Below are positions 1 to 27,520 of a stretch of DNA of 36,677 bases, one piece after another; position 1 is the first letter of the stretch, and every line of letters begins with the position of its first letter. The DNA is from a virus: IMG/VR virus record IMGVR_UViG_3300033550_000017, positions 1 to 36,677 of that record; one strand, written 5' to 3'. Below the pieces are notes generated by a model. It saw only the letters and a list, made by a program, of their open reading frames with translations, was not told where the DNA came from and made no database searches. The position numbers were made by a program, and so were the translations under genes.

Positions 1-127
1 CAGCGTGCAAATCCTCAAAGCAATCCCCCGCGCTCGTAAACATAACTTGTTGCTGCCCATTCTACGTTAGACGAGTTGCTTTGCACCTTCAATCTAATAG
101 CCGCTGCACGGTAAATCCCGCCTACGG
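1..127. repeat. Terminal redundancy, left copy
   Basis: These bases are identical to 36551-36677. The repeat is exactly 127 bases, a common assembler k-mer length, and it joins the two window ends into a circle that keeps genes open across the junction. It is best read as an assembly overlap of a circular or circularly permuted genome rather than as a biological terminal repeat. Confidence 0.95.
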
Positions 128-4814: not shown

Positions 4815-5819
4815 TTAAGAAGCATCAGAGAAGGCCGCTTCGATTTGATCTCGAAGTGACCCCTTTACGGGCGTTGCCGCACTGCCAGCAGGTGAACTAC
4901 CCCGGACGCTTACCGCTGCGGCTTTCGCACGGTTGGCCTGGTTCTGTTCGGTTGCTGCGCGTTGGGCTTCGGCGCGTTGCTGCTCAATCAGGGATTGCCT
5001 GATATCGCTACGCATCCATACCGCTTTATCGTACGCGTCCTGAAGGTTTTCCGCCGTGCCGGTTGACAGCAAGCGGGCCATATCCTCTCGGACCTCGTTA
5101 AAATGCACGTTCGCAGGATCGGACATAAACTTCTGGATCTCGGTCTGATACCCAGACATTTCCGCCTGTTCCTGCTGCTGGCGGAACTGCTGCAATTGCT
5201 GCTGCAACTGCATAGTTTGTTGTTGCAAATATTGTACGTTAGGATCAACCTGCGGCGCATTAATTACTTGGCCCAGGTCAACACCGTATTCTTGCGCCAA
5301 TTGACCCAAGAAACGAGCCTTGGTTGCCGGATCCGAATACCTCAGCGTATGGTCAGCCTGGAATAGCTTGGCCACCGCAGTAGGAGCATCCACCCCCAAC
5401 CCTCGGATGGTCTGCATATACGGCTCTACAGCCCGTTGATATGCCTGCGCTTCCTGGGCGTGCGACTTATACTGCTCGATCCCCTTGTGGTAATCCGTCT
5501 CACGGCGATTGGCTTCTGCCGTCAGCAGCTTGATTTCTGCCGGCGTCAATGGCTCGCCAGATTCTGCCTTCATATAGGCAGCCTGCGCGTCTGGCTTCCA
5601 GCTAGAAGGGGCGCGACGGGGAGGCGCTACCTCTGTCTGGGCCGGTTCAGCCTGAACCCCAGGCTTAGCCTCCTGTTCCTGCTTGGCGGCAAATCTCCCT
5701 GCTTCGTCCCGTTCCCGGGTAGCCACTTCGACTTCAGGTTTGGCAGCAGCCTGGGTTTCTTCAGCCTGCTCAAACGCTGCGGTCAGCGTGCTTTGCAGGT
5801 CATCCTGTGGGTTTTCCAT
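4815..5819 (-). CDS. Scaffolding protein (334 aa)
   Basis: The protein is highly charged, with Glu, Gln and Ala dominating and almost no Cys or Trp. It contains a long Gln-rich helical stretch (about residues 195-225) and a short basic C-terminal region, as in coat-binding ends of podovirus scaffolds. It lies immediately upstream of the major capsid gene, the standard place for a scaffold, with AAGGAAATCCAA before the ATG. The scaffold would assemble with coat protein into the procapsid and then leave. Identification rests on composition plus position. Confidence 0.8.
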   Translation of the reverse strand: MENPQDDLQSTLTAAFEQAEETQAAAKPEVEVATRERDEAGRFAAKQEQEAKPGVQAEPAQTEVAPPRRAPSSWKPDAQAAYMKAESGEPLTPAEIKLLTAEANRRETDYHKGIEQYKSHAQEAQAYQRAVEPYMQTIRGLGVDAPTAVAKLFQADHTLRYSDPATKARFLGQLAQEYGVDLGQVINAPQVDPNVQYLQQQTMQLQQQLQQFRQQQEQAEMSGYQTEIQKFMSDPANVHFNEVREDMARLLSTGTAENLQDAYDKAVWMRSDIRQSLIEQQRAEAQRAATEQNQANRAKAAAVSVRGSSPAGSAATPVKGSLRDQIEAAFSDAS

Positions 5820-9271: not shown

Positions 9272-10653
9272 CAAATCCTCTCTGAGCGCGTGGGCGCCGT
9301 TGCCCATAGTTCGTCTAGCGTTGCCGTCACAATACGGCCATTCTGCCCCATAGCAGGATAACGCGCAGGCTCTACCGGATCGGGAGCCTTATGCTCTGCC
9401 ATTACCTGAGCACCGTATGAAAACGCATCTGCCGGATGAGACGCCCAATTATGCAACGGCTCGCGTGAGAATACTCCGGTGTCCTGATTATATTCAAATT
9501 CCCACGCACGTAACCCATCCACACCAGATTCCGTCAAATCCCGGTTAAATGCGCATCTAGGGATAATCGCCCTGGCCGCGCTGATCTGGTCCAGCTTGCG
9601 AGTCTGCGGCACAACCGCCACTCGCCCAGCGCCAAACGCAGATAGAAACTTCTCCATCGACGTGTGCTTACTTTGGAATGTCTTAGCCCGTGCGTCATGC
9701 GGCAACCAGATACGGCCTACACCCCTTCCTCCTAGCTCCAGAATGTTCTCCTGGATCTTTGGTATCCAATCATCCGCATCTAGCCCTGACTCGCCCTCGT
9801 ACTTCAGCACATTGAAGCCACCAGGCACACGCTGCCAGTACCACCACGCAGCAGTATCCCGAAAGCCTAGATCGCTAGACACCTCGATAGGCGATCCATT
9901 CGGGTCGAACACCACTTCGTCATTGATTCTGCCTTCCCTCTCCGCCTGGTTGACCCAGCGGCCCAGGATAGAGCCTGTGATATTGCCGTATGCGCCTTCC
10001 CAGATATGATCGTATTCATCCGGCCGCTCAGCTAAATCACGCTGGCGAGCACGTTCAAGCATCTTGGGGAATTTGGGATTGTCGCGCCAGTTAAGCTGCA
10101 CGACCTTGATACGAGCATCCTTGGATTGGCGGAACCGCTTATCCGTCGGGCTACCCTTGCGCCTAGGGTTCCACGTCACCCAAAGCTCAGCGTTCCAGCC
10201 GTCACCCTCTTCCCGCAGCGTAGGGATCAGCACCTGCCAGGAGTAGTCAACCACATCTTCAGCTTCGTCCACCCACGTCAGCAACAGGCGACCCTTGGAC
10301 TTCACGCTGGCAATGTTGCGGTCCAGGCCTGCAAACGCAAAGCTGATGCGCCCATCCCTGGATTTGATGTACTTCTCGCCTATCTCGTAATAGGACGCCA
10401 GAAACGGCTCATCCTCGATAGCGCGCTTGCACTCTTCGAGGGACGAGTCTTCCAGGGAGTTCATGAACTGACGGGCGCACAGGAGAATGCCCTTGATACC
10501 CTGCATCCCGTACATATAGCCTCTGACGGCTACCATCTTGGCAAAGCTGCGCGTCTTGGCGCTTCCCCGGCCTCCCCATGCTCCCCGTACGTCAGCCTCA
10601 CCTGTGAAGACAGGGATCAGCCTCTTGGGGATCTCAATCGTTACTGCCGTCAT
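9271..10653 (-). CDS. terL: Terminase large subunit (460 aa)
   Basis: This is the packaging motor ATPase and nuclease. The Walker A motif is GGRGSAKT (27-34), with Walker B LLLTWVDEAE around 123-132 (D129, E130 catalytic). A coupling motif VTWNP lies near 159-163. The C-terminal RNase-H-like nuclease shows acidic residues at D261 (SSDLGF), D320 (LPHDA) and D409 (HPADAFSYG). The length suits the PBSX/P22-like Terminase_3 group. It overlaps the TerS-like gene by 20 bases and sits upstream of the portal, the usual order. A weak ribosome site suggests coupling to TerS translation. Confidence 0.93.
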   Translation of the reverse strand: MTAVTIEIPKRLIPVFTGEADVRGAWGGRGSAKTRSFAKMVAVRGYMYGMQGIKGILLCARQFMNSLEDSSLEECKRAIEDEPFLASYYEIGEKYIKSRDGRISFAFAGLDRNIASVKSKGRLLLTWVDEAEDVVDYSWQVLIPTLREEGDGWNAELWVTWNPRRKGSPTDKRFRQSKDARIKVVQLNWRDNPKFPKMLERARQRDLAERPDEYDHIWEGAYGNITGSILGRWVNQAEREGRINDEVVFDPNGSPIEVSSDLGFRDTAAWWYWQRVPGGFNVLKYEGESGLDADDWIPKIQENILELGGRGVGRIWLPHDARAKTFQSKHTSMEKFLSAFGAGRVAVVPQTRKLDQISAARAIIPRCAFNRDLTESGVDGLRAWEFEYNQDTGVFSREPLHNWASHPADAFSYGAQVMAEHKAPDPVEPARYPAMGQNGRIVTATLDELWATAPTRSERI

Positions 10654-17726: not shown

Positions 17727-18139
17727 TTATGCCACCCTGGGATATGAGGGTCATCAGACCACTGAACACTATTCATGGCTCCGAAAGCCTGGATGCTTTC
17801 GATCAGGTCAGCCATATCCTTGACCCCTAGCGTGCGCGTTTGCTGGCCAAGAGCAACAACACCTTTCCCGTCAAGCGATGGCACCAGCTGCATGCGGTTC
17901 GTTTCTCGAAGCCAAGAATCCACCAACAGACGCTTCCAGTCTTCAACGCCAAGCTTGCGATCCATCCACTTCATTTGCGCCGCGATATCGCCACAAAGAG
18001 CATGTAGCTTGGCATTCTGGTTCAGGCTGCGGTTAGGCTCTTGGATAGTGACGAAGTGGCCATCAGGAGCCGTGAGCATGGCCTGCACCAACATTTGCCT
18101 GGTGGCGGGAGTTACGCGGATGCGTCGGTGTTCTGACAT
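17723..18139 (-). CDS. ninB: NinB/Orf-family recombination protein (138 aa)
   Basis: The sequence has the NinB hallmarks: EPNRSLNQNAKLHALCGDIA, KWMDRKLGVEDWKRLLVD, then a MQLVPSLDGKGVVALG and TRTLGVKDMADLIESIQAFG region. The family includes lambda Orf, a recombination mediator that binds SSB and ssDNA. Length agrees with the family. It overlaps the upstream HTH gene by 28 bases and the HNH gene by four. It probably works with the ERF annealase and SSB encoded on the other arm. Confidence 0.88.
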   Translation of the reverse strand: MSEHRRIRVTPATRQMLVQAMLTAPDGHFVTIQEPNRSLNQNAKLHALCGDIAAQMKWMDRKLGVEDWKRLLVDSWLRETNRMQLVPSLDGKGVVALGQQTRTLGVKDMADLIESIQAFGAMNSVQWSDDPHIPGWHK

Positions 18140-18336
18140 TTCGCTTCCCGTGCTTTCTTCGCCTGCTCCATCGTCAGGAGTGCTTGAAGGGACATTACCG
18201 TCCTGTGTAGCCCACCTGTGCGCATCCCACGGCTGATGAGCGATACCGTGGATTCGCTCAGCCCCGTATCCTTTGCGATGCGGTACTGAGACAGGCCCAG
18301 GGCCTTGAGTTGGTCGATCAGATTTTTAGCGTCCAT
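18112..18336 (-). CDS. Cro-like HTH regulator at the divergent switch (74 aa)
   Basis: Residues about 14-42 (GLSQYRIAKDTGLSESTVSL) form a classical helix-turn-helix, followed by a helix and a basic end (EQAKKAREAKCQ). It is the first leftward gene, beginning about 100 bases from a 9-bp inverted repeat that flanks the rightward promoter. It is thus a candidate to bind that operator and control both arms. It is too small to be a CI-type repressor with a cleavable C-terminal domain. Confidence 0.75.
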   Translation of the reverse strand: MDAKNLIDQLKALGLSQYRIAKDTGLSESTVSLISRGMRTGGLHRTVMSLQALLTMEQAKKAREAKCQNTDASA

Positions 18337-18437
18337 GCCTCATGATACTTTACCGCGCCGAAGCCATCAAGTAAGATGGGAACTAGATAGAACCGTGGCG
18401 AGGAGTGGAGTTGCCTCAGAGCTACAACAGATATATA
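18337..18437. promoter_or_regulatory. Leftward leader/promoter region
   Basis: No gene is present. On the minus strand TTGATG, 17 bases, then TATCAT ends six bases before the ATG of the HTH gene, so it would give an almost leaderless transcript with GAGG too close to the start. A TATATA stretch near 18431 is the alternative -10 and would lie next to the inverted repeat. Which one is used is unclear. Confidence 0.35.
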
Positions 18438-18467
18438 AGTTGAGATGGGCATAAAAATATCTCAACT
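18438..18467. promoter_or_regulatory. Operator candidate: 9-bp inverted repeat
   Basis: AGTTGAGAT and ATCTCAACT are perfect inverted 9-base arms with 12 AT-rich bases between, a centre-to-centre distance of two helical turns. The repeat ends five bases before the -35 of the rightward promoter and covers possible leftward promoter elements, as expected for an operator of the neighbouring Cro-like protein. Confidence 0.65.
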
Positions 18468-18472
18468 ATTGC

Positions 18473-18502
18473 TTGACAAATAGAAAGCCAGTCGTCTATA
18501 GT
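18473..18502 (+). promoter_or_regulatory. Rightward sigma70 promoter
   Basis: TTGACA (18473-18478), an 18-base spacer and TATAGT (18497-18502) make a near-consensus promoter. It drives the plus-strand early operon, whose first gene starts more than 300 bases downstream, leaving a long structured leader. Confidence 0.8.
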
Positions 18503-18575
18503 TCATTCAACGCAGCACGAAACGCACCGCTTAGGCCAAAGGCCAGCACCGCGAAGCTGCAAGTACCGCAAGACC

Positions 18576-18628
18576 GCTCTTTAACAACCAGCTAAGCGAT
18601 AGAACAGGCTCTATGTCCCTCTTGGGAC
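18576..18628 (+). promoter_or_regulatory. boxA antitermination site with two hairpins (nut/put-like)
   Basis: GCTCTTTAACAA at 18576-18587 is identical to the boxA of bacterial rRNA leaders, which recruits the NusB/NusE antitermination complex. Two small hairpins follow: ATAGA-6-TCTAT (18599-18614) and GTCCC-TCTT-GGGAC (18615-18628). The order resembles a lambda nut site, but no N-like Arg-rich protein is encoded nearby. An RNA- or host-factor-based mechanism is therefore likelier. Confidence 0.7.
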
Positions 18629-18683
18629 GCTCGGCCCCGGACGCACTCTCCACCGGAAGCGAAGTTTGCTCAAGACGAGAGAC

Positions 18684-18767
18684 GAGAAGACAGTTTGGAT
18701 ACCTTGGCCCGTAAAGCCCGGCTCCCGTTAGGGTGACTGAAAAACTAGGTATGCCGACTGTCTTCTC
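18684..18767 (+). ncRNA. Structured leader element C (11-bp closing stem)
   Basis: GAGAAGACAGT and ACTGTCTTCTC form a perfect 11-bp stem around 62 bases. Inside, ATACCT pairs with AGGTAT, and CCC-GTTA-GGG plus GGCCCGTAAAGCCC offer more hairpins. It lies in the untranslated leader between boxA and the first early gene. With the preceding hairpins it could form a put-like antitermination RNA or regulate the first genes. A weak hairpin (18783-18803) follows before the 51-aa gene. Confidence 0.55.
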
Positions 18768-18825
18768 CAGATTCATCTGAATGTGCCTTCTAAGAGGGCG
18801 CACCCAAATGAATTAGGGGATTGAT

Positions 18826-18981
18826 ATGAGCAAATATAAGATCGTGGATAGCGCGGACGGATGGGTTAGGCAGTGCGAAATCGAAGCCGAAGACCACGAA
18901 GTAGCTCAAGAGATTTACATAGACCAATGCGATCAGGCTGGCCTGATTCTTGGAACGCTTCGGATTTGCCGAATTGACTGA
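18826..18981 (+). CDS. First early gene, hypothetical acidic protein (51 aa)
   Basis: MSKYKIVDSADGWVRQCEIE continues through EAEDHEVAQEIYIDQCDQAG to an ICRID end. It is acidic, which argues against an N-like antiterminator (those are Arg-rich) and fits a small inhibitor of a host protein. GGGG lies eight bases before the ATG. It opens the rightward operon directly after the long structured leader. No family is recognised. Confidence 0.6.
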   Translation: MSKYKIVDSADGWVRQCEIEAEDHEVAQEIYIDQCDQAGLILGTLRICRID

Positions 18982-19025
18982 TTCTGCGACGTGACAGGAC
19001 ACAGACACGTGAACAAGGAGAACTA

Positions 19026-19301
19026 ATGGACTACCAGATTCACTGGCCCGCCAGCATCGACGTGTTGATCTACATAACGGACGGCGACCACCAGCAAGGC
19101 ACCGCGACGGTCAGCTTCAAGCCCGGCAAGGAAATTACCAAGCAAGACGTTCGTGAAGCCGTGGCGGAGTTTGAGCGCGACAACATGCCCCCGGGCTTCC
19201 GCTTGATGACGAAGCCTGAGGTGTGGGACTGGATTTGCCAGGACATGGCAGGCCGCGGCGCTCACTTCGCCATGCCGGGTGGCCCTGACTTCGACGACTG
19301 A
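19026..19301 (+). CDS. Early hypothetical protein (91 aa)
   Basis: An AAGGAGAA ribosome site precedes the ATG and shares the 12-mer AACAAGGAGAAC with the next gene's leader. The protein opens with a beta-like stretch (IDVLIYITDGDHQQGTATVS), continues with an acidic helix (ITKQDVREAVAEFERDN) and ends acidic (GPDFDD). There is no catalytic motif. High expression soon after infection is likely from position and ribosome site. Confidence 0.6.
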   Translation: MDYQIHWPASIDVLIYITDGDHQQGTATVSFKPGKEITKQDVREAVAEFERDNMPPGFRLMTKPEVWDWICQDMAGRGAHFAMPGGPDFDD

Positions 19302-19346
19302 TCCCGCTTCTTTCAGGATTCATACCGATTAACAAGGAGAACGAGA

Positions 19347-19619
19347 ATGGAATTACCGCGCAAGGTTTGGGTGCTGACGCCCTCATTCAAGCCGAAGGAA
19401 ATTGAGGTCGAGACATTCAAAACCAGCGGCATATGGGGCGACTGGTATCACATGGCATCAGGTAAGGGCTACCGCGCACGTGATGTGTACGAGTCGAAAC
19501 AAGACGCCATCGAGGGCGGCTTCAAGAAGCTTGAAGAGCGCGCTCAGTACCTCGACAAACAGCTAGAGCAGCAGGCCAAGCGCCGAGACGCTTTGATGAA
19601 AGCAAAGCTCAGCATCTAG
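19347..19619 (+). CDS. Early hypothetical protein (90 aa)
   Basis: MELPRKVWVLTPSFKPKEIE leads into an aromatic, glycine-containing core (SGIWGDWYHMASGKGYRARD). A long charged C-terminal helix follows that is likely a coiled coil (KKLEERAQYLDKQLEQQAKR). A strong ribosome site (AAGGAGAACGAGA) precedes the ATG. It is a small two-part protein of unknown role. The AT-richer flanks contain no other features. Confidence 0.6.
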   Translation: MELPRKVWVLTPSFKPKEIEVETFKTSGIWGDWYHMASGKGYRARDVYESKQDAIEGGFKKLEERAQYLDKQLEQQAKRRDALMKAKLSI

Positions 19620-19658
19620 CCTCTCCCTATTAGCAGCCCGAATGGAAAAGGAGAAGAT

Positions 19659-20045
19659 ATGACACCCGAACAGAAGATCAAGCAACTGATCCTGAACCTT
19701 CAGGCTCGCTGGTCCGGAGAGACCGCGCCTGATGTGAATGCGGAAAACATTGATGAGGTTTTCGACGCCGCCAACGAAGATTGGGCACTTCAAGACTCCA
19801 TCAACGAAATTCGCTGCTCAGGGATCGAGACGGGTCTTAAGTGCGATTGGTCGCGGCACTACGAAAGCGAAGCCGTCGCCATGCAGGCCGTAGATGGTTC
19901 GTGGGTGGGCTGGACCTACTGGTTTGGCGGGGGAAAGCACGGTGAGCCTGAAGCCATGCCGTGGATGGAGCATGCCTACGACGTTGATTGTGCGGAAGAA
20001 GTGAAGGTAGTCACTGTCAGGACTTTCACCAAGCCAGCGGCATAG
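19659..20045 (+). CDS. Early hypothetical protein (128 aa)
   Basis: The N-terminal helix MTPEQKIKQLILNLQARW is followed by an acidic segment and a Trp/Gly-rich part (DGSWVGWTYWFGGGKHGEPE), ending with a beta-like EVKVVTVRTFTKPAA. The middle (LKCDWSRHYESEAVAMQ) and the Trp-rich part recall small phage proteins of unknown function in early regions. AAAAGGAGAAG precedes the ATG. No activity is assigned. Confidence 0.6.
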   Translation: MTPEQKIKQLILNLQARWSGETAPDVNAENIDEVFDAANEDWALQDSINEIRCSGIETGLKCDWSRHYESEAVAMQAVDGSWVGWTYWFGGGKHGEPEAMPWMEHAYDVDCAEEVKVVTVRTFTKPAA

Positions 20046-20054
20046 GAGTTCGCC

Positions 20055-20222
20055 ATGACAACCACCCACTACGCAGCATCCTCCAGCAACGCAATGGCCA
20101 GCTGGTACCAGATGTGGGACCAGGCCGACGCTACGTACTGGGTAACGCTAGGCCGTGACGGCTGGTACTCGTTCGGTCTTGGCGTGATGGATGACTTCGG
20201 CAATCTGGTGAAGGTGAAGTAA
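20055..20222 (+). CDS. Early hypothetical protein (55 aa)
   Basis: MTTTHYAASSSNAMASWYQM and YWVTLGRDGWYSFGLGVMDD give a Trp/Tyr-rich small fold, possibly one beta-hairpin domain. GGAG is close to the preceding stop. It is the last clear gene before the gene-poor structured region. No family is recognised. Confidence 0.55.
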   Translation: MTTTHYAASSSNAMASWYQMWDQADATYWVTLGRDGWYSFGLGVMDDFGNLVKVK

Positions 20223-20250
20223 CGCGCTCAGGGCCGCGCAAGCCCTGAAC

Positions 20251-20338
20251 CTCCAAGGATGCGGAGCCTTTTATTCATTCGTTCCGCGAAAAAGCGCATG
20301 AGTCCCACAGCAGTACCGGTGGCTCCGCATCCTTGGGG
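20251..20338 (+). repeat. Element D: 16-bp perfect inverted repeat, extendable to 18
   Basis: CCAAGGATGCGGAGCC (20253-20268) and GGCTCCGCATCCTTGG (20321-20336) pair perfectly around 52 bases. Two further pairs at the base include a U.G that is valid only in plus-strand RNA. A 9-base direct repeat ATGCGCAGT (20343-20351, 20356-20364) follows. Confidence 0.85.
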
Positions 20339-20400
20339 GTGAATGCGCAGTGCTGATGCGCAGTAGCTTGAATTGGAATCGGGTGTTAAGGGCCTCGGGC

Positions 20401-20577
20401 ATGTCTGACACCAAGCCGGAGATTCAGCACCGGCCACCCCCACCCAAATCTCCCTGGCGCCGTGCAACAGTCGGCCGTCTCCCGGACGAAACCCGGGGTC
20501 CTCAAGTCGGAATCCTGATCGGGAACGCGATGAAGGCGCTGGTCATGCCTGAACCAGCAACGTGCCGGAGCAAGTAG
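20401..20577 (+). CDS. Doubtful small ORF inside the structured region (58 aa)
   Basis: An ATG with AAGGG upstream opens MSDTKPEIQHRPPPPKSPWR and ends at a TAG before the second arm of the 18-bp stem. Codon choice is not clearly unlike its neighbours, so it cannot be excluded. It is Pro/Arg-rich without a recognisable domain, and it overlaps strong RNA stems, which better explain the sequence. Confidence 0.25.
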   Translation: MSDTKPEIQHRPPPPKSPWRRATVGRLPDETRGPQVGILIGNAMKALVMPEPATCRSK

Positions 20578-20597
20578 AGCAGGGTTCCGACTTGAGG
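20500..20597 (+). repeat. Element E: 18-bp stem with one G.U
   Basis: CCTCAAGTCGGAATCCTG (20500-20517) pairs with CAGGGTTCCGACTTGAGG (20580-20597). The single non-Watson-Crick pair (U20513.G20584) is a wobble in plus RNA and would be A.C in the other strand. The 62-base interior contains the hairpin GCTGGT/ACCAGC. Confidence 0.85.
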
Positions 20598-20640
20598 GTT
20601 GTGAATAAGGCAGATCGGGTATCCACCCGTCCGTTCCCTC

Positions 20641-20701
20641 CTTGACCCAGTGGGAGTCTGCCGAAATAGATTGGGCACCCTCACCCACCGGCTGGGTTAA
20701 G
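20641..20701 (+). repeat. Element F: 10-bp stem with one G.U
   Basis: CTTGACCCAG (20641-20650) pairs with CTGGGTTAAG (20692-20701). G20644.U20698 is a wobble only in plus-strand RNA. The interior of 41 bases is rich in GGG and CCC runs that may pair further. Confidence 0.7.
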
Positions 20702-20946
20702 TCCGGTTGTCGAAAGCGGATGCCGTGTCACATGGTCCAAAAGGGGATCGGCACGGATGTAGCGAGTAGAACCGCAACGAGCGTGCAGCGCCGAGCGCGT
20801 ACGCAGCAGACGAGCGGAATCAATACGGCGGTGGAAGTCCGCGCCGGAGACGTAACCGGCACATTTCTAAGTTCCCCTCTTCCCCTAATTCTCCCGTGCA
20901 GGGTATGCCGGGGGAGAGCGGGGTCTTACCTGATTGGAGAACTGCG

Positions 20947-21297
20947 ATGAGCAAGATCAATCTGCCCGAGTTGCCCAGCCTGGGAAGTTGTGTCGTCAAT
21001 GAAGCTTGCTGGAAATTCATCGAGAACCTTCCCCACACCATACCGGGGCCGATCTTCAACGATCTGAAGCCGGCCATTTACGCAGCTTTGTGCCATGCGC
21101 TTCCCGCCTACGCCGAGCAGGCTGTACGCGAAGCTCTGGCGGCGCTGGAGCCGGTGGCCTACCTGAATGCCGAAGCGCTTGACCGGTTGCAAAAACCATA
21201 CGTCGCCGGTTGCGCTGCGGCGCTGGAGAACGCTCCTCGCGGCGGATTTGTGGCTATAGCCATCATCCCCAACCCCGACAAGGACCCGCCATGCTAG
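20947..21297 (+). CDS. Early hypothetical protein (116 aa)
   Basis: GGAG lies nine bases before the ATG at 20947. An in-frame ATG farther up (20896) lies in the structured region without a ribosome site. The protein is helical, with FIENLPHTIPGPIFNDLKPA, HALPAYAEQAVREALAALEP, and ends IAIIPNPDKDPPC. It is similar in style to modular phage proteins with short repeated units of unknown role. Confidence 0.6.
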   Translation: MSKINLPELPSLGSCVVNEACWKFIENLPHTIPGPIFNDLKPAIYAALCHALPAYAEQAVREALAALEPVAYLNAEALDRLQKPYVAGCAAALENAPRGGFVAIAIIPNPDKDPPC

Positions 21298-21389
21298 CCG
21301 CCCTCAAGCACATGCTGCACAACGCCTGGGCCATGCGCTGGTACTACGCAACCCTAATTATCCCGCTCGCGTGCGTTGTGGGGTGGTAG
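21291..21389 (+). CDS. Tiny membrane protein (32 aa)
   Basis: The ATG overlaps the preceding stop by seven bases (ATGCTAG). MLAALKHMLHNAWAMRW leads to one hydrophobic segment (YYATLIIPLACVVGW). Overlap and continuous operon spacing support translation, though there is no clear ribosome site, so it would depend on coupling. Confidence 0.45.
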   Translation: MLAALKHMLHNAWAMRWYYATLIIPLACVVGW

Positions 21390-21399
21390 GAGATAACCA

Positions 21400-21654
21400 A
21401 TGAGCAAGAACTATCTGCCTGCATACCCGGAGCCGCATCCTGTTGCTGGGCACCGCATGTTCAGCGCCTCTCAAGTAGAGGCGCATGTCAAAAAGGCAGT
21501 TTGTGATGCGCTGAAGGTGGCGGCTGAGATCTGTTCCGAAGAAGGCCGCGAATGGGACTCGGATGCCGTTATCACCGAGAAGAATTATGCAGAGCATTGC
21601 GCCCAGAGAATACGCACCATCATCCCGGAGAAAGATCATGGGGAGCCATCCTAG
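21400..21654 (+). CDS. Early hypothetical protein (84 aa)
   Basis: An N-terminal Pro-rich stretch with AYPEPHPVAGHRMFSASQVE is followed by a helix with conserved-looking residues (VKKAVCDALKVAAEICSEEG) and an acidic end. This arrangement is common among short phage early proteins (the FSAEQVE..VR.AL...A style). GGAG precedes the ATG. It overlaps the next gene by 17 bases. Confidence 0.6.
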   Translation: MSKNYLPAYPEPHPVAGHRMFSASQVEAHVKKAVCDALKVAAEICSEEGREWDSDAVITEKNYAEHCAQRIRTIIPEKDHGEPS

Positions 21655-21970
21655 ATTCACCTTCGACCCCCCCCAGCACATCTACGACGAGAAGTACGCA
21701 GAAGTCGCCAAGGCAATCGAGGCGGATCTGTTCAAGTGGCGGCACCAGATCGTCGAAGAACTCGGGCAGGAGCGCCACAACCCGGATGCTTGCGAGCTTT
21801 ACCACTTCGCATCAGAGGCAGACAAGCCCGAAGTGATTCTCAGACAGGCTCACGACGGGATCATGGGGCAAGCAGCCCAAGACATGGTGAAGCTGGCGAT
21901 AGGCCATCTTACCGACTACCAAACCAAGAAATTCGTTCGCGGCTTCTGGCCGGAATGGGAAAAATCATGA
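21638..21970 (+). CDS. Early hypothetical protein (110 aa)
   Basis: I chose the ATG at 21638, with GGAG nine bases upstream. The longer reading from 21563 overlaps the previous gene deeply. The protein is helical and acidic (HIYDEKYAEVAKAIEADLFK, KPEVILRQAHDGIMGQAAQD). A run of eight C encodes Pro-Pro near residue 10, a possible slippage site. The stop overlaps the next start as ATGA. Confidence 0.6.
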   Translation: MGSHPRFTFDPPQHIYDEKYAEVAKAIEADLFKWRHQIVEELGQERHNPDACELYHFASEADKPEVILRQAHDGIMGQAAQDMVKLAIGHLTDYQTKKFVRGFWPEWEKS

Positions 21971-22155
21971 GCATCAAATATCCGCCAGAGATTCTCGCAT
22001 TGATCGAGGTCTGCAAGTTTTTCCCCACCGACTCCGACATGGAAATGGCTGGGTGGTCAGAGGACTACATCAAACGAGCTGGCGATGCCTATGACGCTGC
22101 TCAGGAGGTTATTGCTAACTACGGCGGCACGACCTACTTCAGGGGACCTCAATGA
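21967..22155 (+). CDS. Early hypothetical protein (62 aa)
   Basis: MSIKYPPEILALIEVCKFFP and WSEDYIKRAGDAYDAAQEVI are two amphipathic helices, ending TTYFRGPQ. Both ends are coupled by ATGA overlaps, which supports translation strongly. No domain is recognised. Confidence 0.6.
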   Translation: MSIKYPPEILALIEVCKFFPTDSDMEMAGWSEDYIKRAGDAYDAAQEVIANYGGTTYFRGPQ

Positions 22156-22325
22156 AACGCCTGCTGACCTTCCTCAAAATCCACGGCCTCACGATTCTTT
22201 TCGGGGCCGTTTTTATTACTGCCACCTGCATTCTGCGTCCCACGCTCGACAAACTGGAAGAGGACCGGGTTGCGAAGGAAGGCGGAACCCGATACGCGGC
22301 AGGTGACAGCTATGGATCGCGATGA
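22152..22325 (+). CDS. Small membrane protein (57 aa)
   Basis: A short basic start (MKRLLTFLKIHG) is followed by a membrane segment at about residues 12-28 (LTILFGAVFITATCILRP) and a charged soluble tail. The ATG overlaps the previous stop as ATGA. It could be a signal-anchor protein with its tail in the periplasm. Function is unknown. Confidence 0.55.
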   Translation: MKRLLTFLKIHGLTILFGAVFITATCILRPTLDKLEEDRVAKEGGTRYAAGDSYGSR

Positions 22326-22485
22326 CGAAGCCGCCGCGCTGGCCTACCAGCAACAACTAGATCAACAGGAACAGGATCATGAAACACAGCGAGTCAGTGA
22401 AGTCTATCGCTCCGGCCCTCTTGGCTGCTCAGAAGGCTACGGAGTTCGCCAAGAAGGATGCCACGAACCCGCATTTCAAGAATAA
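22312..22485 (+). CDS. Possible small protein overlapping ERF (57 aa)
   Basis: AGGTGA lies six bases before the ATG. The first 25 residues (MDRDDEAAALAYQQQLDQQE) look like a real acidic, Gln-rich helix of the kind often encoded just before recombination genes. The second half is read in a shifted frame inside the annealase gene, over 107 bases, and looks random. It may be genuine with an overlapping end, or simply a fragment. Confidence 0.35.
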   Translation: MDRDDEAAALAYQQQLDQQEQDHETQRVSEVYRSGPLGCSEGYGVRQEGCHEPAFQE

Positions 22486-23041
22486 GTACGCCGACCTGCC
22501 CGCCGTCATTGAGGCCGTCAAACCGGCTCTGAACGCTGCTGGCATCGTGTACATCCAGACCGCCAGCCCGTCCGACGATAACCGCCTTCACCTGACGACG
22601 ATGCTGATGCACGAGTCGGGGGAGTGGATCTCCGACACGCTGGTTATGCCGCTTCCGAAGCAAGACCCGCAGGGGTACGGATCGGCGATGACCTACGCCC
22701 GTCGTTACGCTCTGGCGGCTATCACTGGCGTCTACCAAGACGACGATGACGGCAATGCGGCATCTGGTGCGGGAGAGAAGAAGGCGGCGGTTATCAAGCC
22801 GACCAGCGGGGCGATGGATGCCCTAGGGAAGGCCGCTCAAGCTCAAGCGCGGGATTTGGCCTCACTGATCCAGACGAATTTCAACGAAGGAAACGACTGG
22901 GCGGCATTCGAAGAATGGGACGGAATGGACGCTGATGTGGACTTCCGAACCGCCGTTTGGAGCCAGTTGGACAGCAAGGTCCGCGCCTACATCAAGAAAG
23001 CGAAAGCCGAGGCCGACAAACCCGCTACTCAAGGAGCCTAA
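22379..23041 (+). CDS. erf: ERF-family single-strand annealing protein (220 aa)
   Basis: The ERF signature is clear: PALLAAQKATEFAKKDATNP with HFKNKYADL (about 32-40), AVKPALNAAGIVYIQ, then DPQGYGSAMTYARRYALAAI (about 96-115) and GVYQDDDDDG-like acidic residues (about 117-125). The C-terminal third is a variable linker plus helix. The protein anneals complementary ssDNA during phage recombination and circularisation. It is directly followed by SSB, its usual partner. No dedicated 5'-3' exonuclease is seen. Confidence 0.9.
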   Translation: MKHSESVKSIAPALLAAQKATEFAKKDATNPHFKNKYADLPAVIEAVKPALNAAGIVYIQTASPSDDNRLHLTTMLMHESGEWISDTLVMPLPKQDPQGYGSAMTYARRYALAAITGVYQDDDDGNAASGAGEKKAAVIKPTSGAMDALGKAAQAQARDLASLIQTNFNEGNDWAAFEEWDGMDADVDFRTAVWSQLDSKVRAYIKKAKAEADKPATQGA

Positions 23042-23042
23042 T

Positions 23043-23456
23043 GTGGCAAACGATTTGAACCGTTGCGAATTCATCGGGAGGCTAGGCAAGGATCCTGAGA
23101 CGCGCCACTCACCCGATGGTGCAGCTATCTGCAACTTCTCCCTGGCAGTTGGTTGGAAGACTTCCGGCAAAGAAGGCACCGAATGGGTACGCATTGTCGC
23201 CTTCGGCAAGCTGGCTGAGATTTGCGGCGAGTACCTGACCAAGGGCAAGCAGGTCTACGTGTCTGGTCGGATGACGACTCGGAAATGGACGGACAAGGAC
23301 AGCGGCCAAGATCGCTACAGCACTGAAATCGTCGCTGACCAGCTTCAGATGTTGGGTGGCAAGAACGACGAATCTGAGCAGCGCCCGACCTCTAAGCCAG
23401 CAGCGCGTCAGGTCGCACCAAGCACCAGCGACGACCTGTCGGACATACCTTTCTAG
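23043..23456 (+). CDS. ssb: Single-stranded DNA-binding protein (137 aa)
   Basis: An OB-fold SSB: NRCEFIGRLGKDPETRHSPD, FSLAVGWKTSGKEGTEWVRI and GKLAEICGEYLTKGKQVYVS. The tail is disordered and ends in the acidic DDLSDIPF tip that recruits SSB partners. The start is a GTG at 23043 with AGGAG seven bases before it. The ATG two bases earlier is in a frame that stops at once. It protects phage ssDNA and probably contacts NinB/Orf and ERF. Confidence 0.92.
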   Translation: MANDLNRCEFIGRLGKDPETRHSPDGAAICNFSLAVGWKTSGKEGTEWVRIVAFGKLAEICGEYLTKGKQVYVSGRMTTRKWTDKDSGQDRYSTEIVADQLQMLGGKNDESEQRPTSKPAARQVAPSTSDDLSDIPF

Positions 23457-23464
23457 CCTTCCCC

Positions 23465-23527
23465 GGCAGCTCCCCGCACAACCCACCTGGAACCCTCAGC
23501 ATCCGCTGGGGGCTGCCACCCTATTAC
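23465..23527 (+). repeat. Element G: 10-bp stem between SSB and the next gene
   Basis: GGCAGCTCCC (23465-23474) pairs with GGGGGCTGCC (23518-23527). The single wobble is U.G in plus RNA. The interior has 43 bases. No T-run follows, so it is not a normal terminator. It may stabilise or process the mRNA downstream of SSB. Confidence 0.6.
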
Positions 23528-23541
23528 TTGGAGAAATGCGA

Positions 23542-23691
23542 ATGCCTACGCACATTTGGGTAACCGAAGTTCTTAAGGGCGGCAAGTGGCATTTCCTTGT
23601 ATGCCACAAGACTCGCCATATAGCGCGCCATTCAAAGAAGTTTGTATTCACTGGCACAACTACGCGCATCCGCAAGTACGTCCCCGCCTAA
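23542..23691 (+). CDS. Small basic protein (49 aa)
   Basis: MPTHIWVTEVLKGGKWHFLV, then a Lys/Arg/His-rich part (TRHIARHSKKFVF) ending RIRKYVPA: a compact basic protein that may bind nucleic acid. I chose the second ATG (23542) because GGAG is eight bases away. The first (23536) is too close. Function is unknown. Confidence 0.5.
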   Translation: MPTHIWVTEVLKGGKWHFLVCHKTRHIARHSKKFVFTGTTTRIRKYVPA

Positions 23692-23701
23692 CGGAGCAGA
23701 T

Positions 23702-23866
23702 ATGGACCTCGCGCAACAACTCGAACAAGCCGACGCAGACCGCGTTGACGGCATCACGACCGACAAGCAGTACCTGGAGCGCCGTGCCGAGATTGTGGCG
23801 CGGGCGTTAGACCTTGATGACGCATATGACCGATACAAGGAGCGTGCGCTCCTGAGGGGGATGTGA
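23702..23866 (+). CDS. Small acidic helical protein (54 aa)
   Basis: MDLAQQLEQADADRVDGITT and ERRAEIVARALDLDDAYDRY are two charged helices. GGAG is six bases before the ATG and the stop shares a base with the next start (TGATG). No family is recognised. Confidence 0.55.
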   Translation: MDLAQQLEQADADRVDGITTDKQYLERRAEIVARALDLDDAYDRYKERALLRGM

Positions 23867-24003
23867 TGGAAAGCGATCTTTCTGACCTGTCACGTAGAGA
23901 AGACGACTTGGACGACGGGTGCGTAGGTCCCAATCCTATCGCGTGGTTCTTCGGGATTCTCGGCGCTTATGCCGTCCTTTCGATCATCTGGATACTGATA
24001 TGA
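23866..24003 (+). CDS. Small C-terminally anchored membrane protein (45 aa)
   Basis: An acidic, hydrophilic first half (SDLSDLSRREDDLDDG) is followed by one membrane span at about residues 25-45 (IAWFFGILGAYAVLSIIWIL). Start and stop overlap neighbours (TGATG, ATGA). The layout fits a tail-anchored inner-membrane protein. Function is unknown. Confidence 0.55.
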   Translation: MESDLSDLSRREDDLDDGCVGPNPIAWFFGILGAYAVLSIIWILI

Positions 24004-24395
24004 CCCAACAATGGAAGCTTGTCCCGGTTGAGCCGACCGAAGAAATGGAGGCGGCGGCCGTTGGCGACTACGAGCAGTCTGGCGGCACGTATCGGAAGTC
24101 AGCCTACGCCGCCATGCTCGCCGCTGCCCCCACCCCTCCCGCCAGCGCACAGGACGATGCGAAGCACAAGCGGCCGGACTGGATGACGTGCGCAATGCGT
24201 CACCGCATGGTGACGGACAACCTGCGATTCAGCGCATCGCATATGCGCGACAAAGAAAAGCGCTGCCGAGCCGCCTACCAGCAGGAATACATGGGCGCAC
24301 CTATGCGCTGGCTGGCGGGCGTGTACGCCGATGCTGCGGCGGTGTTTGAGGCCAAGCTCGCCGCCCTTTCGGCCTCTCAGCAGCAGGAGGGGTAG
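24000..24395 (+). CDS. Modular early protein of the WKLVPVEPT type (131 aa)
   Basis: MTQQWKLVPVEPTEEMEAAA followed by YRKSAYAAMLAAAPTPPASA is a widespread N-terminal module of phage early proteins with no assigned function. The linker AAAPTPPA is a typical recombination joint. A helical, Cys-containing module with YQQEYMGAPMRWLAGVYADA closes it. The ATG overlaps the preceding TGA as ATGA. Mosaic construction is likely. Confidence 0.65.
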   Translation: MTQQWKLVPVEPTEEMEAAAVGDYEQSGGTYRKSAYAAMLAAAPTPPASAQDDAKHKRPDWMTCAMRHRMVTDNLRFSASHMRDKEKRCRAAYQQEYMGAPMRWLAGVYADAAAVFEAKLAALSASQQQEG

Positions 24396-24397
24396 AC

Positions 24398-24688
24398 ATG
24401 GGCGACATGGGAGATTTCTGGCGCGATGTGAAGCCAGCCATGAAAGAGCGCAGCCAGCAAAAGCGGGCCGGCAACCGCGAGCAGTCCGCGCGATCTCTGA
24501 CGGACGCTGGCATCCAGTTCCTTAGCCGGAACGCCGGGGCGCATTTGATCGTGATCGGCGCTAACGGCCACACCTACGACTTCTGGCCTGGCACCGGCCT
24601 ATGGCGCATGCGCGGCAGCACCAGGGACCATCGCGGCGTGCGCAGCCTGATCCGTGCCGCCCAGCCCACCACCAAGGAAAGGACATGA
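24398..24688 (+). CDS. Early hypothetical protein (96 aa)
   Basis: A basic helix (FWRDVKPAMKERSQQKRAGN) precedes a compact mixed part: LTDAGIQFLSRNAGAHLIVI, HTYDFWPGTGLWRMRG, ending in a basic tail. It resembles a recurrent phage early domain in which a short beta-sheet ends in a GTGLW.. turn. No known activity. Its stop overlaps the next start as ATGA. Confidence 0.6.
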   Translation: MGDMGDFWRDVKPAMKERSQQKRAGNREQSARSLTDAGIQFLSRNAGAHLIVIGANGHTYDFWPGTGLWRMRGSTRDHRGVRSLIRAAQPTTKERT

Positions 24689-25755
24689 CCGACAACAACA
24701 CCCCCGCCCCGGCGCCGAAGGATGCCGTGCTGACGGATGACGAAATCCTCGACGCCATTGCTGTATCAGCGAACTTTGACGAGTTAGATAGGGCCGCTTG
24801 GAGTCCCGAGTCACTGGCGCTGGGGCGCGCCATCGAATCCGCCCTGCTGTCCAAGCTGGGCGCCCCTGTAGGCGGTGAGCGGGAGACGACCGCACCCGTT
24901 ACTGGCGTGGCACAGTACACGAAGAAGCCCGTAACAATCAGTGCAATCCGTTGGAACGGGAAGAATCTGCGGCAAGTCATCGCCTTCACTGATGGGCCTC
25001 CCGAAACTCGCACGATTCACGCAGGGATGGCCTGGGAAAGCTACGAAGGCCTTGTCGGTCGCGGAGGCCTGAAAATCTATACGCTGGAAGGGGAAATGCT
25101 CGCCAATAAAGGCGACTGGATCATACGGGGGGTCAAAGGCGAGTTCTACCCCTGCAAGCCGGACGTATTCGTTGCTACTTACGAACCGGCAAGCGCCCCT
25201 GTAGCCGATGAGCTGCCCGAGTGGGAGCAAATCTCGGCCAAGCTGGAGCGCGACGAGACGCTAACCCCGCTGGAATTGTTCGTCTATGACAACGAACCGG
25301 CAGGCGACGACGACGCTTGGCGCGACCAACTTGCCGCTGCCCTGGCAAGCGCCCCTGTAGCCGGGAACGCACTTCAGGTGGCGACCGTTGCCATGCAGCT
25401 TATCCGCCGTTCGGCGCTGAACGCCTTCGACCGCCAGCAACACGACAAGCTGGTTCAAGACTTTGCCGCGCTACACGAGCGCCCGGCCAGCGAGGCGCAA
25501 TGCTCCTGCCCCAGCGGCGACGGCTCCCTGCGTCATCCGTGCTCGGTGCACCAGGCCAGCGAGGCGGTGCGCGATGCCGAAGACGCCGCACGGTGGCGAT
25601 GGGCCACAACTGTCGATGACAACGCTGAAACGCTCCATTCCATCATGCTGTGCCACGGCGGCGACCAGCGGAAGATCAATGAGCGCGCAGACTTTTACCG
25701 CGCAGCCCTGTCCGCGCAACCGGGCGCGCAGAAGAACGGAGGCGGCGATGCCTGA
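24685..25755 (+). CDS. Mosaic early protein of several short phage modules (356 aa)
   Basis: The protein looks assembled from separable modules: an N-terminal part (about 1-65), a module with ISAIRWNGKNLRQVIAF and GDWIIRGVKGEFYPCKPDVF known as a stand-alone phage domain (about 80-170), an acidic helical module (about 175-215), a helical module (about 230-265), a Cys/His-containing stretch (CSCPSGDGSLRHPCSVH) and a C-terminal helix. Joints repeat the linker APVA or ASAPVA, and two of them are encoded by identical 20-base sequences. No single function is recognised. Recombination at the linkers probably built it. Confidence 0.65.
   Translation: MTDNNTPAPAPKDAVLTDDEILDAIAVSANFDELDRAAWSPESLALGRAIESALLSKLGAPVGGERETTAPVTGVAQYTKKPVTISAIRWNGKNLRQVIAFTDGPPETRTIHAGMAWESYEGLVGRGGLKIYTLEGEMLANKGDWIIRGVKGEFYPCKPDVFVATYEPASAPVADELPEWEQISAKLERDETLTPLELFVYDNEPAGDDDAWRDQLAAALASAPVAGNALQVATVAMQLIRRSALNAFDRQQHDKLVQDFAALHERPASEAQCSCPSGDGSLRHPCSVHQASEAVRDAEDAARWRWATTVDDNAETLHSIMLCHGGDQRKINERADFYRAALSAQPGAQKNGGGDA
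25188..25363 (+). repeat. 20-bp direct repeat encoding an inter-module linker
   Basis: GGCAAGCGCCCCTGTAGCCG occurs identically at 25188-25207 and 25344-25363, 156 bases apart and in frame. A shorter related copy, CGCCCCTGTAG, lies at 24861-24871. All encode the ASAPVA or GAPVG joint. Confidence 0.9.
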
Positions 25756-26008
25756 TATCCGCGTCAACTTCGGCGGCGGCGTGGCGATCCTGACCGTCTC
25801 CGGCGACTACAAGCCCGGCGATCCGCCGCCCACCGGCTACAGCGCGAGAGAGGATTGGTTTAACGCGCAGATCAAGGGTGGTCTGCGCCAAGTTGAATGC
25901 CCGCGCTGCCGCCGCTGGGCGTTCCCTCAAGAGCTCGCACCGGGCGGTCGCATCTGCAAGCCTTGCGCCCACCCCGGCCACAAGGATGGAGGGGCTGTCT
26001 ATGAATGA
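25748..26008 (+). CDS. Putative zinc-ribbon early protein (86 aa)
   Basis: A beta-like start (DIRVNFGGGVAILTVSGDYK) and YSAREDWFNAQIKGGLRQ are followed by C-x-x-C twice (CPRCRRW, CKPCAHPG), a likely zinc ribbon. Overlap with the previous gene is eight bases, in another frame. It may bind nucleic acid or a host protein. No family name can be given. Confidence 0.6.
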   Translation: MPDIRVNFGGGVAILTVSGDYKPGDPPPTGYSAREDWFNAQIKGGLRQVECPRCRRWAFPQELAPGGRICKPCAHPGHKDGGAVYE

Positions 26009-26231
26009 CCTGATCACACGCCTGCGCGAGAACGCGGACTTGGACGCAGCAGAAGGCGGCAACCCGGAAGTGATCGCGCTGGAGTTGGAGGCCGCCGATG
26101 TTATAGAGCGCCTCACCGCCCAGCTCCGCGAGTGCGCCGAAACTCTCGGGGCCGACCTGATCGACGAGCAGCGCGCCATGCGGGCCTATGCCGATGCAAC
26201 GAAGCTGCTGGATGAATTGAAGGAGAAATGA
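26001..26231 (+). CDS. Coiled-coil early protein (76 aa)
   Basis: MNDLITRLRENADLDAAEGG, then LELEAADVIERLTAQLRECA and a helical tail: a nearly continuous amphipathic helix of a type often seen in early phage regions. GGAGGGG lies upstream. The stop overlaps the following ATG as ATGA. Oligomerisation is likely, function unknown. Confidence 0.6.
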   Translation: MNDLITRLRENADLDAAEGGNPEVIALELEAADVIERLTAQLRECAETLGADLIDEQRAMRAYADATKLLDELKEK

Positions 26232-26569
26232 TGCGTAAGGAAGACTTAGACGCCATCGCAGAGCGCCAGCCGTATTGTCGGAACTTCGGGGAGAGCGTCA
26301 GCTTGAGCCGAGCCGAAAGGGATGGGCTGGTGGCACTGGCGAAGAAGGCAGTAGTGTGGAGGCGATGCGATAAAGAAGTTCCAGATACCGATGTCTGGCT
26401 GTTGGTAGCCGGGATGTTCGATGGTCCGCATGATTGGCGAACTCGTCAGGGCTTCTATTCTGGCGAGACCAAGACATGGCATGTATCGAATGCTTCCTGG
26501 AAGCCTATTTATTGGGGCTACATGCCAATCTTTAACGCAGACGCCGAGATGGCGAAGGAGGGAACGTGA
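26228..26569 (+). CDS. DUF551-like early protein (113 aa)
   Basis: The second half shows WRRCDKEVPDTDVWLLVAGM, GFYSGETKTWHV and W.PIYWGYMP, the pattern of DUF551 (a small phage domain with conserved Trp and a P.TD..VL start). The N-terminal 40 residues are a helix, possibly an added module. AAGGAG precedes two adjacent ATGs; the first overlaps the previous stop as ATGA. Function unknown. Confidence 0.65.
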   Translation: MMRKEDLDAIAERQPYCRNFGESVSLSRAERDGLVALAKKAVVWRRCDKEVPDTDVWLLVAGMFDGPHDWRTRQGFYSGETKTWHVSNASWKPIYWGYMPIFNADAEMAKEGT

Positions 26570-26940
26570 AGGTAGCTGATCTGGAAGGAGCACTGCTGGA
26601 CGCTTGGGTTGTCAAGGCGTTGGGCGGGTATCGAGGTCCTTACCAACTGGTCAAAGATGGGCGGCCAGAGAAGAACTGTCTGATCTTTCCTGACGGCGTT
26701 CCGTTCCGCGCGACCACCGGCAACCTGATGCCGTCGTCCGATTGGTCGCACGGTGGACCCATCATCGAGCGCGAGCGGATCCGCCTACACCACAGAAGCG
26801 ACGGAATTCCCTGGGCGTCCCAGATATTTGTCGATGGGAACTCAGTGATGCCGATATACGGCTATGGCGATACGCCCCTGATCGCAGCCATGCGCGCCTA
26901 CGTGGCCAGCAAGTACGGAGTAGAAGTACCCGATGAATGA
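26566..26940 (+). CDS. NinX-like protein, DUF2591 (124 aa)
   Basis: MKVADLEGALLDAWVVKALG at the start, FRATTGNLMPSSDWSHGGPI in the middle and DTPLIAAMRAYVASKYG at the end match DUF2591, the lambdoid NinX family, whose role is not established. The start is GTG, overlapping the previous stop as GTGA. It is the last clear gene before the terminator. A 19-codon frame begins inside its end (26933-26992) and is probably not significant. Confidence 0.78.
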   Translation: MKVADLEGALLDAWVVKALGGYRGPYQLVKDGRPEKNCLIFPDGVPFRATTGNLMPSSDWSHGGPIIERERIRLHHRSDGIPWASQIFVDGNSVMPIYGYGDTPLIAAMRAYVASKYGVEVPDE

Positions 26941-26982
26941 CCAAATCCAGCGCGTGCTGGAAGTAACCCGCAAGTATTGGAT

Positions 26983-27007
26983 GCCCGCCTAGCCCGGGCT
27001 TTGTTTT
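26983..27007 (+). terminator. Probable rho-independent terminator after NinX
   Basis: GCCCG, a seven-base loop, then CGGGC and TTTGTTTT. The stem has only five pairs, so it may be partial. The 40-aa gene beyond it has its own strong ribosome site, so read-through may be intended. Confidence 0.55.
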
Positions 27008-27016
27008 GGAGGCAAT

Positions 27017-27139
27017 ATGAAGGAATGGGGCCTGTTTGTATTGATCACTATCTGGGTAGTTCTTTTCTCTGGGACGCCTGATCTACACGACAAGATCATG
27101 GACTTGTTAGATCGGCAAGCAGTGTGCCAGAAGGGTTAA
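27017..27139 (+). CDS. Small membrane protein at the arm junction (40 aa)
   Basis: MKEWGLFVLITIWVVLFSGT is a signal-anchor-like hydrophobic start, then an amphipathic tail with one Cys (DLLDRQAVCQKG). GGAGG is six bases before the ATG. Its stop meets the stop of the minus-strand lipoprotein gene at 27136-27139. It is probably read through the weak terminator upstream. Function unknown. Confidence 0.5.
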   Translation: MKEWGLFVLITIWVVLFSGTPDLHDKIMDLLDRQAVCQKG

Positions 27140-27360
27140 TCGTCCATCCCAGGCCAATCGCATAGGCGAGCCCCCAGCTCGTTATGATAGAGTATCTGAC
27201 GGGCTGTAGAGTCCGTCAGCACATCTTCTGGCTCGATGAAGATCATACGAGCTACCAAGCAGAACTCAGCCCCCATCGGCTCCCTTGTTGCGCATCCACT
27301 TGCGCCGAAGCTCAGCAGCAGCCCCACCGTCAGGCATCCGATCAATCTTGGCTTGAACAT
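27136..27360 (-). CDS. Outer-membrane lipoprotein, o-spanin-like (74 aa)
   Basis: MFKPRLIGCLTVGLLLSFGA leads to a lipobox ASGC with Cys23, a lipoprotein signal. The mature part (about 52 aa) has FCLVARMIFIEPEDVLT and TARQILYHNELGARLC, a pattern seen in small lysis-cassette proteins. It starts inside the i-spanin-like gene, 95 bases overlapped in another frame, as in Rz/Rz1 pairs. It lacks the usual Pro-rich o-spanin stretch, so a different envelope role is possible. Confidence 0.65.
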   Translation of the reverse strand: MFKPRLIGCLTVGLLLSFGASGCATREPMGAEFCLVARMIFIEPEDVLTDSTARQILYHNELGARLCDWPGMDD

Positions 27361-27520
27361 GGCTGCTTTCCTTGGCGGCTTCTACCGCCTGCTTGTTGAT
27401 CTGATCTCGCACTTCCTGTTTGCCGTCAGCTTTGCCCTTCATGCGCACACCGAAGTACGTCAGGACGATAGCAAAGCCGCCAGCAAGATAGGGCCAGAAT
27501 TCAGCGATTAGAGCGGTCAT
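27266..27520 (-). CDS. Inner-membrane i-spanin-like protein (84 aa)
   Basis: One N-terminal membrane segment (about residues 8-25, FWPYLAGGFAIVLTYFGVRM) is followed by a charged helical periplasmic part (QEVRDQINKQAVEAAKESSH). With the embedded lipoprotein it forms an i-spanin/o-spanin-like pair that would join the two membranes at lysis. It is shorter than lambda Rz. The ATG overlaps the endolysin stop as ATGA. Confidence 0.65.
   Translation of the reverse strand: MTALIAEFWPYLAGGFAIVLTYFGVRMKGKADGKQEVRDQINKQAVEAAKESSHVQAKIDRMPDGGAAAELRRKWMRNKGADGG

Follow-up and report, generated by a model that had tools for sequence, protein, structure and literature searches.

The early leader of the virus studied here carries what looks like the boxA of rRNA operons, and the genes behind it offer no obvious N-type antiterminator. 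We therefore asked whether host factors alone might carry early transcription through the untranslated RNA of this phage. The window, by which we mean the whole stretch of DNA that was analysed, is IMG/VR virus record IMGVR_UViG_3300033550_000017, positions 1 to 36,677 (36,677 bases, one strand). Its features are collected in Table 1.

Table 1. Features of the early control region and operon in the window
Feature	Position	Strand	Basis or remark
Xre-type regulator	18112-18336	-	
Early (PL-like) sigma-70 promoter, TTGACA-18-TATAGT	18473-18502	+	11/12 against consensus
5' transcribed segment preceding boxA	18508-18575	+	sequence comparison
rRNA-type boxA, GCTCTTTAACAA	18576-18587	+	exact match; identical in L100, L364 and L244
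First small hairpin (AUAGA/UCUAU)	18599-18614	+	predicted
Second small hairpin (GUCCC-UCUU-GGGAC)	18615-18628	+	
Long leader-module hairpin around conserved core GGCCCGUAAAGCCCGGC ... UGAAAAACU	18684-18767	+	
Distal leader hairpin, immediately 5' of the first gene	18771-18815	+	predicted fold
First early gene	18826-18981	+	51 aa, not basic, no family
Early gene of phrog_25120 (unknown function)	19659-20045	+	E 9e-41
Untranslated structured-RNA stretch (about 720 nt)	20224-20946	+	fold and frame comparison
RNA of two hairpins; insert variable, loops complementary and possibly kissing	20322-20444	+	model R2, 83 bits (this sequence is itself part of the model)
Relative of RF03011 (Methylophilales-1 RNA)	20591-20685	+	52.1 bits, E 1.8e-9
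Short element common to a Pseudomonas viridiflava prophage (L158) and L097	20822-20861	+	92.5% over 40 nt, E 4e-9
Erf-type recombinase, in the early operon	22379-23041	+	

A single exact boxA follows the early promoter

A protein-family search of the window's genes gave the region around the leader a lambdoid-type layout, with NinB and primase-helicase genes behind the Xre-type regulator. The PL-like promoter is the sole promoter-like site within 18400-27400; boxA lies 73 nt downstream of the end of its -10 element, and the untranslated leader extends for about 320 nt, up to the start of the first gene. Terminator-like sites on the plus strand are few before 26 kb, so that Rho would be the chief obstacle to early transcription.

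The published gamma-proteobacterial boxA consensus, GYTCTTTAANA (PMC5725501), has one perfect match in the window, and this is also the only exact copy of the 12-mer. By chance we would expect 0.11 consensus matches (the mean of shuffles, 9 of 100 of which held at least one) and 0.003 copies of the 12-mer (a first-order Markov estimate). When two mismatches are allowed, the number of matches in the window is at chance level, and the evidence for boxA is therefore the exact match together with its position. The perfect rRNA-type boxA of the original prediction is thus present, and it can be assigned to that type on its consensus match, its place in a leader after a promoter and its conservation in relatives.

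Relatives that keep the leader keep its boxA

To find relatives we searched IMG/VR with an interior pattern of the window's leader from which boxA was excluded. The three contigs recovered (L100, L244 and L364) all carry an exact boxA at the same spacing. Absence of boxA from close relatives with the leader had been named as evidence against the proposal, and this outcome therefore favours boxA; the relatives without boxA have exchanged the leader, as described below. The module of L244 has diverged by 23%, yet its boxA is exact, and its main hairpin shows two-sided base-pair changes. A blastn search returned no phage record with the window's leader, and a leader model (R1) found no further clear member among 69 sources and 274 genomes of the class, the one other match being partial, at 19 bits.

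By a second route, the boxA-centred 18-mer GACCGCTCTTTAACAACC retrieved 68 IMG/VR stretches, in which boxA mostly lies just 3' of a promoter. That GACC and ACC flank boxA so regularly at these 68 loci is due in part to selection by the search pattern, and we gave it no evidential weight. The stretches include or match the P. aeruginosa phages D3, PMG1, phi2 and PAE2, with boxA in the leader adjoining cI. A promoter score of at least 9 was found upstream of 59% of the leader boxA sites, mostly 45-50 nt away, against 5% of shuffles. A third route, which started from sequence inside the D3-type module and not from boxA, yielded nine contigs, 9/9 with boxA and all already within the boxA set.

As a control for order we searched the whole IMG/VR collection for TATAAT-35..65-GCTCTTTAACAA and for the reverse arrangement. 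With redundant contigs included in the counts, the promoter-then-boxA order gave at least 120 stretches and the reverse order 77; contigs with GC >0.45 made up 35 of 119 among the matches listed for the former and 1 of 77 for the latter. As a separate observation, GACCGCTCTTTAACAACC in L124 (2394-2519) lies directly 5' of a tRNA-like sequence, in which ARAGORN called no tRNA; the contig has a tRNA cluster some 2.5 kb further downstream.

boxA lies at a mosaic joint between leaders and promoters

Starting just ahead of boxA, the window and L100 share more than 120 nt without a difference; upstream of this point they have diverged. In L364 the module of the window follows an upstream part resembling that of L106. 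Across 82 boxA sites we distinguished 20 downstream modules and 36 upstream types in 49 combinations. The roughly 20 boxA-headed modules, found mostly in temperate phages of P. aeruginosa (D3, PMG1, PAE2), stand behind many different promoters. One boxA with so many modules and promoters places it at a mosaic joint, and the comparisons indicate that the leader RNA with its boxA is exchanged between related phages as a unit. Four contigs (L104, L113, L138 and L143) have two boxA-headed modules in tandem in the early leader, 221 nt apart.

Other leaders lack boxA. L356 shares part of the segment preceding boxA in the window, ACCGCTTAGGCCAAAGGCCAGCACCGCGAAGCTGCA, and then runs on into a different module that lacks boxA; it also has sequence similar to the distal leader hairpin. 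This second module (CAGGCAGGTTTATGGCGCCACCTG ... GAGTACCCCTTGGGAGACGTGGACG, in two 5' versions) occurs in eight contigs (L356-L363; for example L356, about 9625-9800) and in the leaders of L006 and L063, the nearest boxA-less relatives, whose primase (L006, 84% identical) and an early gene (L063, 69% identical) resemble those of the window. These nearest relatives thus swapped the whole leader module rather than losing boxA from it, and such phages can evidently live without boxA. We also considered GCAGTACC as a general cassette joint and rejected it: it marks several leader joints and is not enriched elsewhere.

These leaders bear on the comparison with the put RNAs of HK022, which had been drawn for the window. 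The put RNAs are not known to contain boxA or to need Nus factors. The window resembles put in the structured RNA of its early leader, for which we found no phage protein, but boxA is the conserved part of the window's leader, which argues against the comparison. The boxA-less module of L006, L063 and L356 would be a better candidate for a put-like RNA.

Leader structure and the search for an N protein

Over its full length the leader folds better than shuffles (z -3.7). Relative to L244 (77% identical), 14 of the 57 predicted pairs of the module have changed on both sides, mainly in the long hairpin; these changes lend moderate support to the structure, the four sequences amounting effectively to two lineages. 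Both of the small hairpins originally predicted in the 320-base leader were located, and they fared differently in L244, where the second has two of its five pairs kept through two-sided changes and the first has two of five broken. In the predicted final fold the CUCUU of boxA can pair with a conserved GAGAG that lies about 100 nt further on. When nascent transcripts were modelled, the shortest of them left most bases of boxA largely unpaired. The leader matched no Rfam family, and nothing in the whole window reached a gathering score.

Among the first early proteins, PHROG and Pfam searches found no antiterminator (N) family. We found no Arg-rich N-like protein within about 5 kb downstream of the leader, in agreement with the original prediction, and the first small frame with an arginine-rich (ARM-like) stretch lies beyond 24 kb. 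No basic protein is common to the window, L100, L364 and L244. N proteins are too diverse for exclusion by profile. We also examined an Arg-rich frame in the D3-type leader as a hidden N and rejected it: in its 3' part the stem GATGCGC/GCGCATC is replaced by GATGCCC/GGGCATC, so that pairing is kept and the reading frame lost, and the region behaves as RNA.

The boxA might nevertheless be half of a lambda-like nut site, with the structure of the leader bound by a phage protein that has escaped recognition and that would complete an N-type complex. Such sites (for example nutL and nutR of HK620) likewise place boxA in a PL-like early leader next to the immunity region, and the rRNA-type variant occurs there too: in the nutR of HK620 and that of HK140, phages that encode N, GCTCTTTAACA is accompanied by a strong boxB hairpin, so an rRNA-type boxA alone is compatible with N. 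The first small hairpin of the window, 11 nt after boxA, is boxB-like in position and size, and the structure of the module is conserved. We nevertheless think this unlikely. In L244 two of the five pairs of this boxB-like hairpin are lost, which puts a conserved boxB in doubt; the small Arg-rich protein that a lambda N/nut system has in the same early operon was not found near the leader; the carriers of the module have no basic protein in common; and the one Arg-rich leader frame, that of the D3-type modules, behaves as RNA. Of the earlier proposal that the phage uses host rRNA-type antitermination, what stands is that boxA is genuine and kept with its module, that no Arg-rich N-like protein was found within about 5 kb, and that the long stretch is untranslated; that the phage manages without a protein of its own does not follow from the type of boxA, given the N-type nutR of HK620 and HK140.

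Untranslated structured RNA in the early operon

The long stretch predicted to be untranslated does prove to be untranslated structured RNA. Compared with L100 it shows conserved blocks, out-of-frame gaps and no conserved reading frame, and it folds much better than shuffles (z -5.25), an excess that coding controls lack. Its C content is not unusually high, and Rho loading there is therefore not evident. Thus the early operons of this phage and its relatives contain RNA that is not translated and would lie open to Rho.

Within this stretch lies an RNA of two hairpins. Its outer stem covaries strongly: it has two-sided changes in 7 of 10 pairs and 95% of all cells pair, whereas pairing drops to 30-45% in slid controls. 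All copies keep the frame of the RNA, whereas the insert that separates the hairpins has a length of 49-121 nt and a sequence that changes from phage to phage. Complementarity between the two loops spans 5-6 nt of hardly varying bases, and the loops may possibly form a loop-loop (kissing) contact. Other copies lie in L158 (6286-6430), L154 (6747-6870), L379 (2893-3039) and L380 (2911-3033). The RNA is found in prophages of Pseudomonas viridiflava and P. laurentiana and in the P. aeruginosa phages PAE2 and phi2, and also in Erwinia phage phiEt88, where it is shortly 5' of a tRNA gene, in Klebsiella phage KlebP_265, where two copies precede a tRNA cluster, and in enteric-type prophages. In the genome G174 the outer stem, GTTCGTGGG/CCCACGAAC, is of other sequence and fully paired. 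The RNA matched no Rfam family and its sequence was not found in the literature searched; with its hypervariable inserts, it is an undescribed RNA and the most interesting by-product of our analysis. An obligate link between boxA and this RNA was considered and rejected: the RNA is present, and boxA absent from the stretch examined, in each of G174, an Erwinia phage and a Klebsiella phage.

Several further RNA features were noted. In L087 (4844-5032) and its identical copies in L092, L099 and L140, a sequence resembling a tRNA T-arm (GAGGGTTCGACTCC) closes the variable insert of the two-hairpin RNA; ARAGORN called no tRNA there. The score of the RF03011-like element is below the gathering score of that family (79.9 bits), and its E value suggests a distant relative. 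Directly 5' of it, at 20506-20591, is a weak DUF3800-X-like match (RF02984, E 0.5). L063 has a permuted tmRNA at 5560-5810 (RF04321, 106 bits; predicted tag ANDDYIRAAA), at the place in its early operon that matches the untranslated stretch of the window.

In rRNA itself the Nus complex serves maturation more than antitermination (PMC4807359), and this is the ground for another explanation, in which the complex formed at boxA would hold the 5' end near the polymerase for proper folding or processing of the leader and the RNAs downstream. The structure of both leader and untranslated stretch fits such a role, as does the position of the tmRNA of L063, and E. coli rRNA is Rho-resistant even without Nus factors (PMC4807359). 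We regard it as quite improbable as the chief function, given that boxA leaders with quite different RNAs are common and that we found no processing site shared among the interchangeable modules. The two roles of boxA, in RNA maturation and in antitermination, are compatible.

A proposed host-dependent antitermination site

The reading that we prefer is antitermination by host factors. It draws on direct observations: the sequence and position of boxA, its conservation with the module, the shuffling of boxA-headed modules, the untranslated structured RNA and the lack of a detectable N-like protein. From these we infer Nus binding, Rho resistance and independence of N, and we give a probability of roughly 0.55 to boxA being a working Nus-factor loading site that confers Rho-resistant elongation with no phage N needed. 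RNA polymerase from the early promoter would transcribe boxA within about 80 nt. Host NusB-S10 would bind it and, with NusA, NusG and SuhB, would turn the polymerase fast and Rho-resistant, as on rRNA. The modified polymerase could then cross the leader and the structured stretch and reach the recombination genes behind, and a phage N protein would not be required. The remainder of the leader module would be a structured RNA, probably tuning or stabilising the complex.

There is precedent for such an action of boxA. In E. coli it rescues transcription across a 567-bp untranslated insert, for which SuhB is required (PMC4807359), and in Legionella it gives about tenfold more expression along untranslated CRISPR arrays (PMC7862264). 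The CRISPR-array boxA (Stringer et al., cited in PMC7862264) is also a non-rRNA boxA before an untranslated transcript, whereas the window's boxA fronts a phage early operon. The boxA of rrn leaders has the same core sequence (PMC5725501), shortly after the promoter and with untranslated structured RNA downstream; the window's boxA differs in heading a phage operon with protein genes, where it is a putative Nus site not accompanied by a demonstrated rrn boxB-boxA-boxC order. The early leaders of D3, PMG1, PAE2 and phi2 have the same rRNA-type boxA behind a PL-like promoter beside cI, although their downstream RNA modules are others and boxA is unannotated in their records.

Several observations count against the preferred reading: the possible pairing of boxA with GAGAG in the final fold, the existence of near relatives without boxA, the rRNA-type boxA of N-type nut sites, and the ordinary C content of the untranslated stretch. 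There is little to recommend the view that boxA now serves chiefly as a conserved point at which phages recombine by homology, with little or no regulatory effect: the mosaic joint does lie at boxA, and the CUS-3 region matching the boxA leader of L250 is annotated as a boundary sequence, but exact conservation of 12-15 nt of rRNA boxA and the usual 45-50 nt from promoters call for a functional reason, and modules without boxA use GCAGTACC-like joints to recombine at this very position.

Implications for temperate phages

Beyond this phage, we suggest only tentatively that in a wide range of temperate phages, those of Pseudomonas and of other Pseudomonadota, leaders headed by boxA act as interchangeable, N-independent antitermination cassettes that need only host Nus factors, for early operons with long untranslated structured RNAs, among them the undescribed two-hairpin RNA family with its hypervariable inserts. 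In the genomes compared, leader modules are seen to move between phages as units together with their boxA, and the arrangement probably serves the passage of transcription, by means of host factors, across the untranslated RNA downstream. If the proposal is true, it would fill a gap for many Pseudomonas temperate phages, including D3, for which our search downstream of the leader gave no N-like protein: the rRNA machinery of the host would take the part of antiterminator. It would also give a testable reason why structured RNAs that are not translated can sit midway along a phage early operon.
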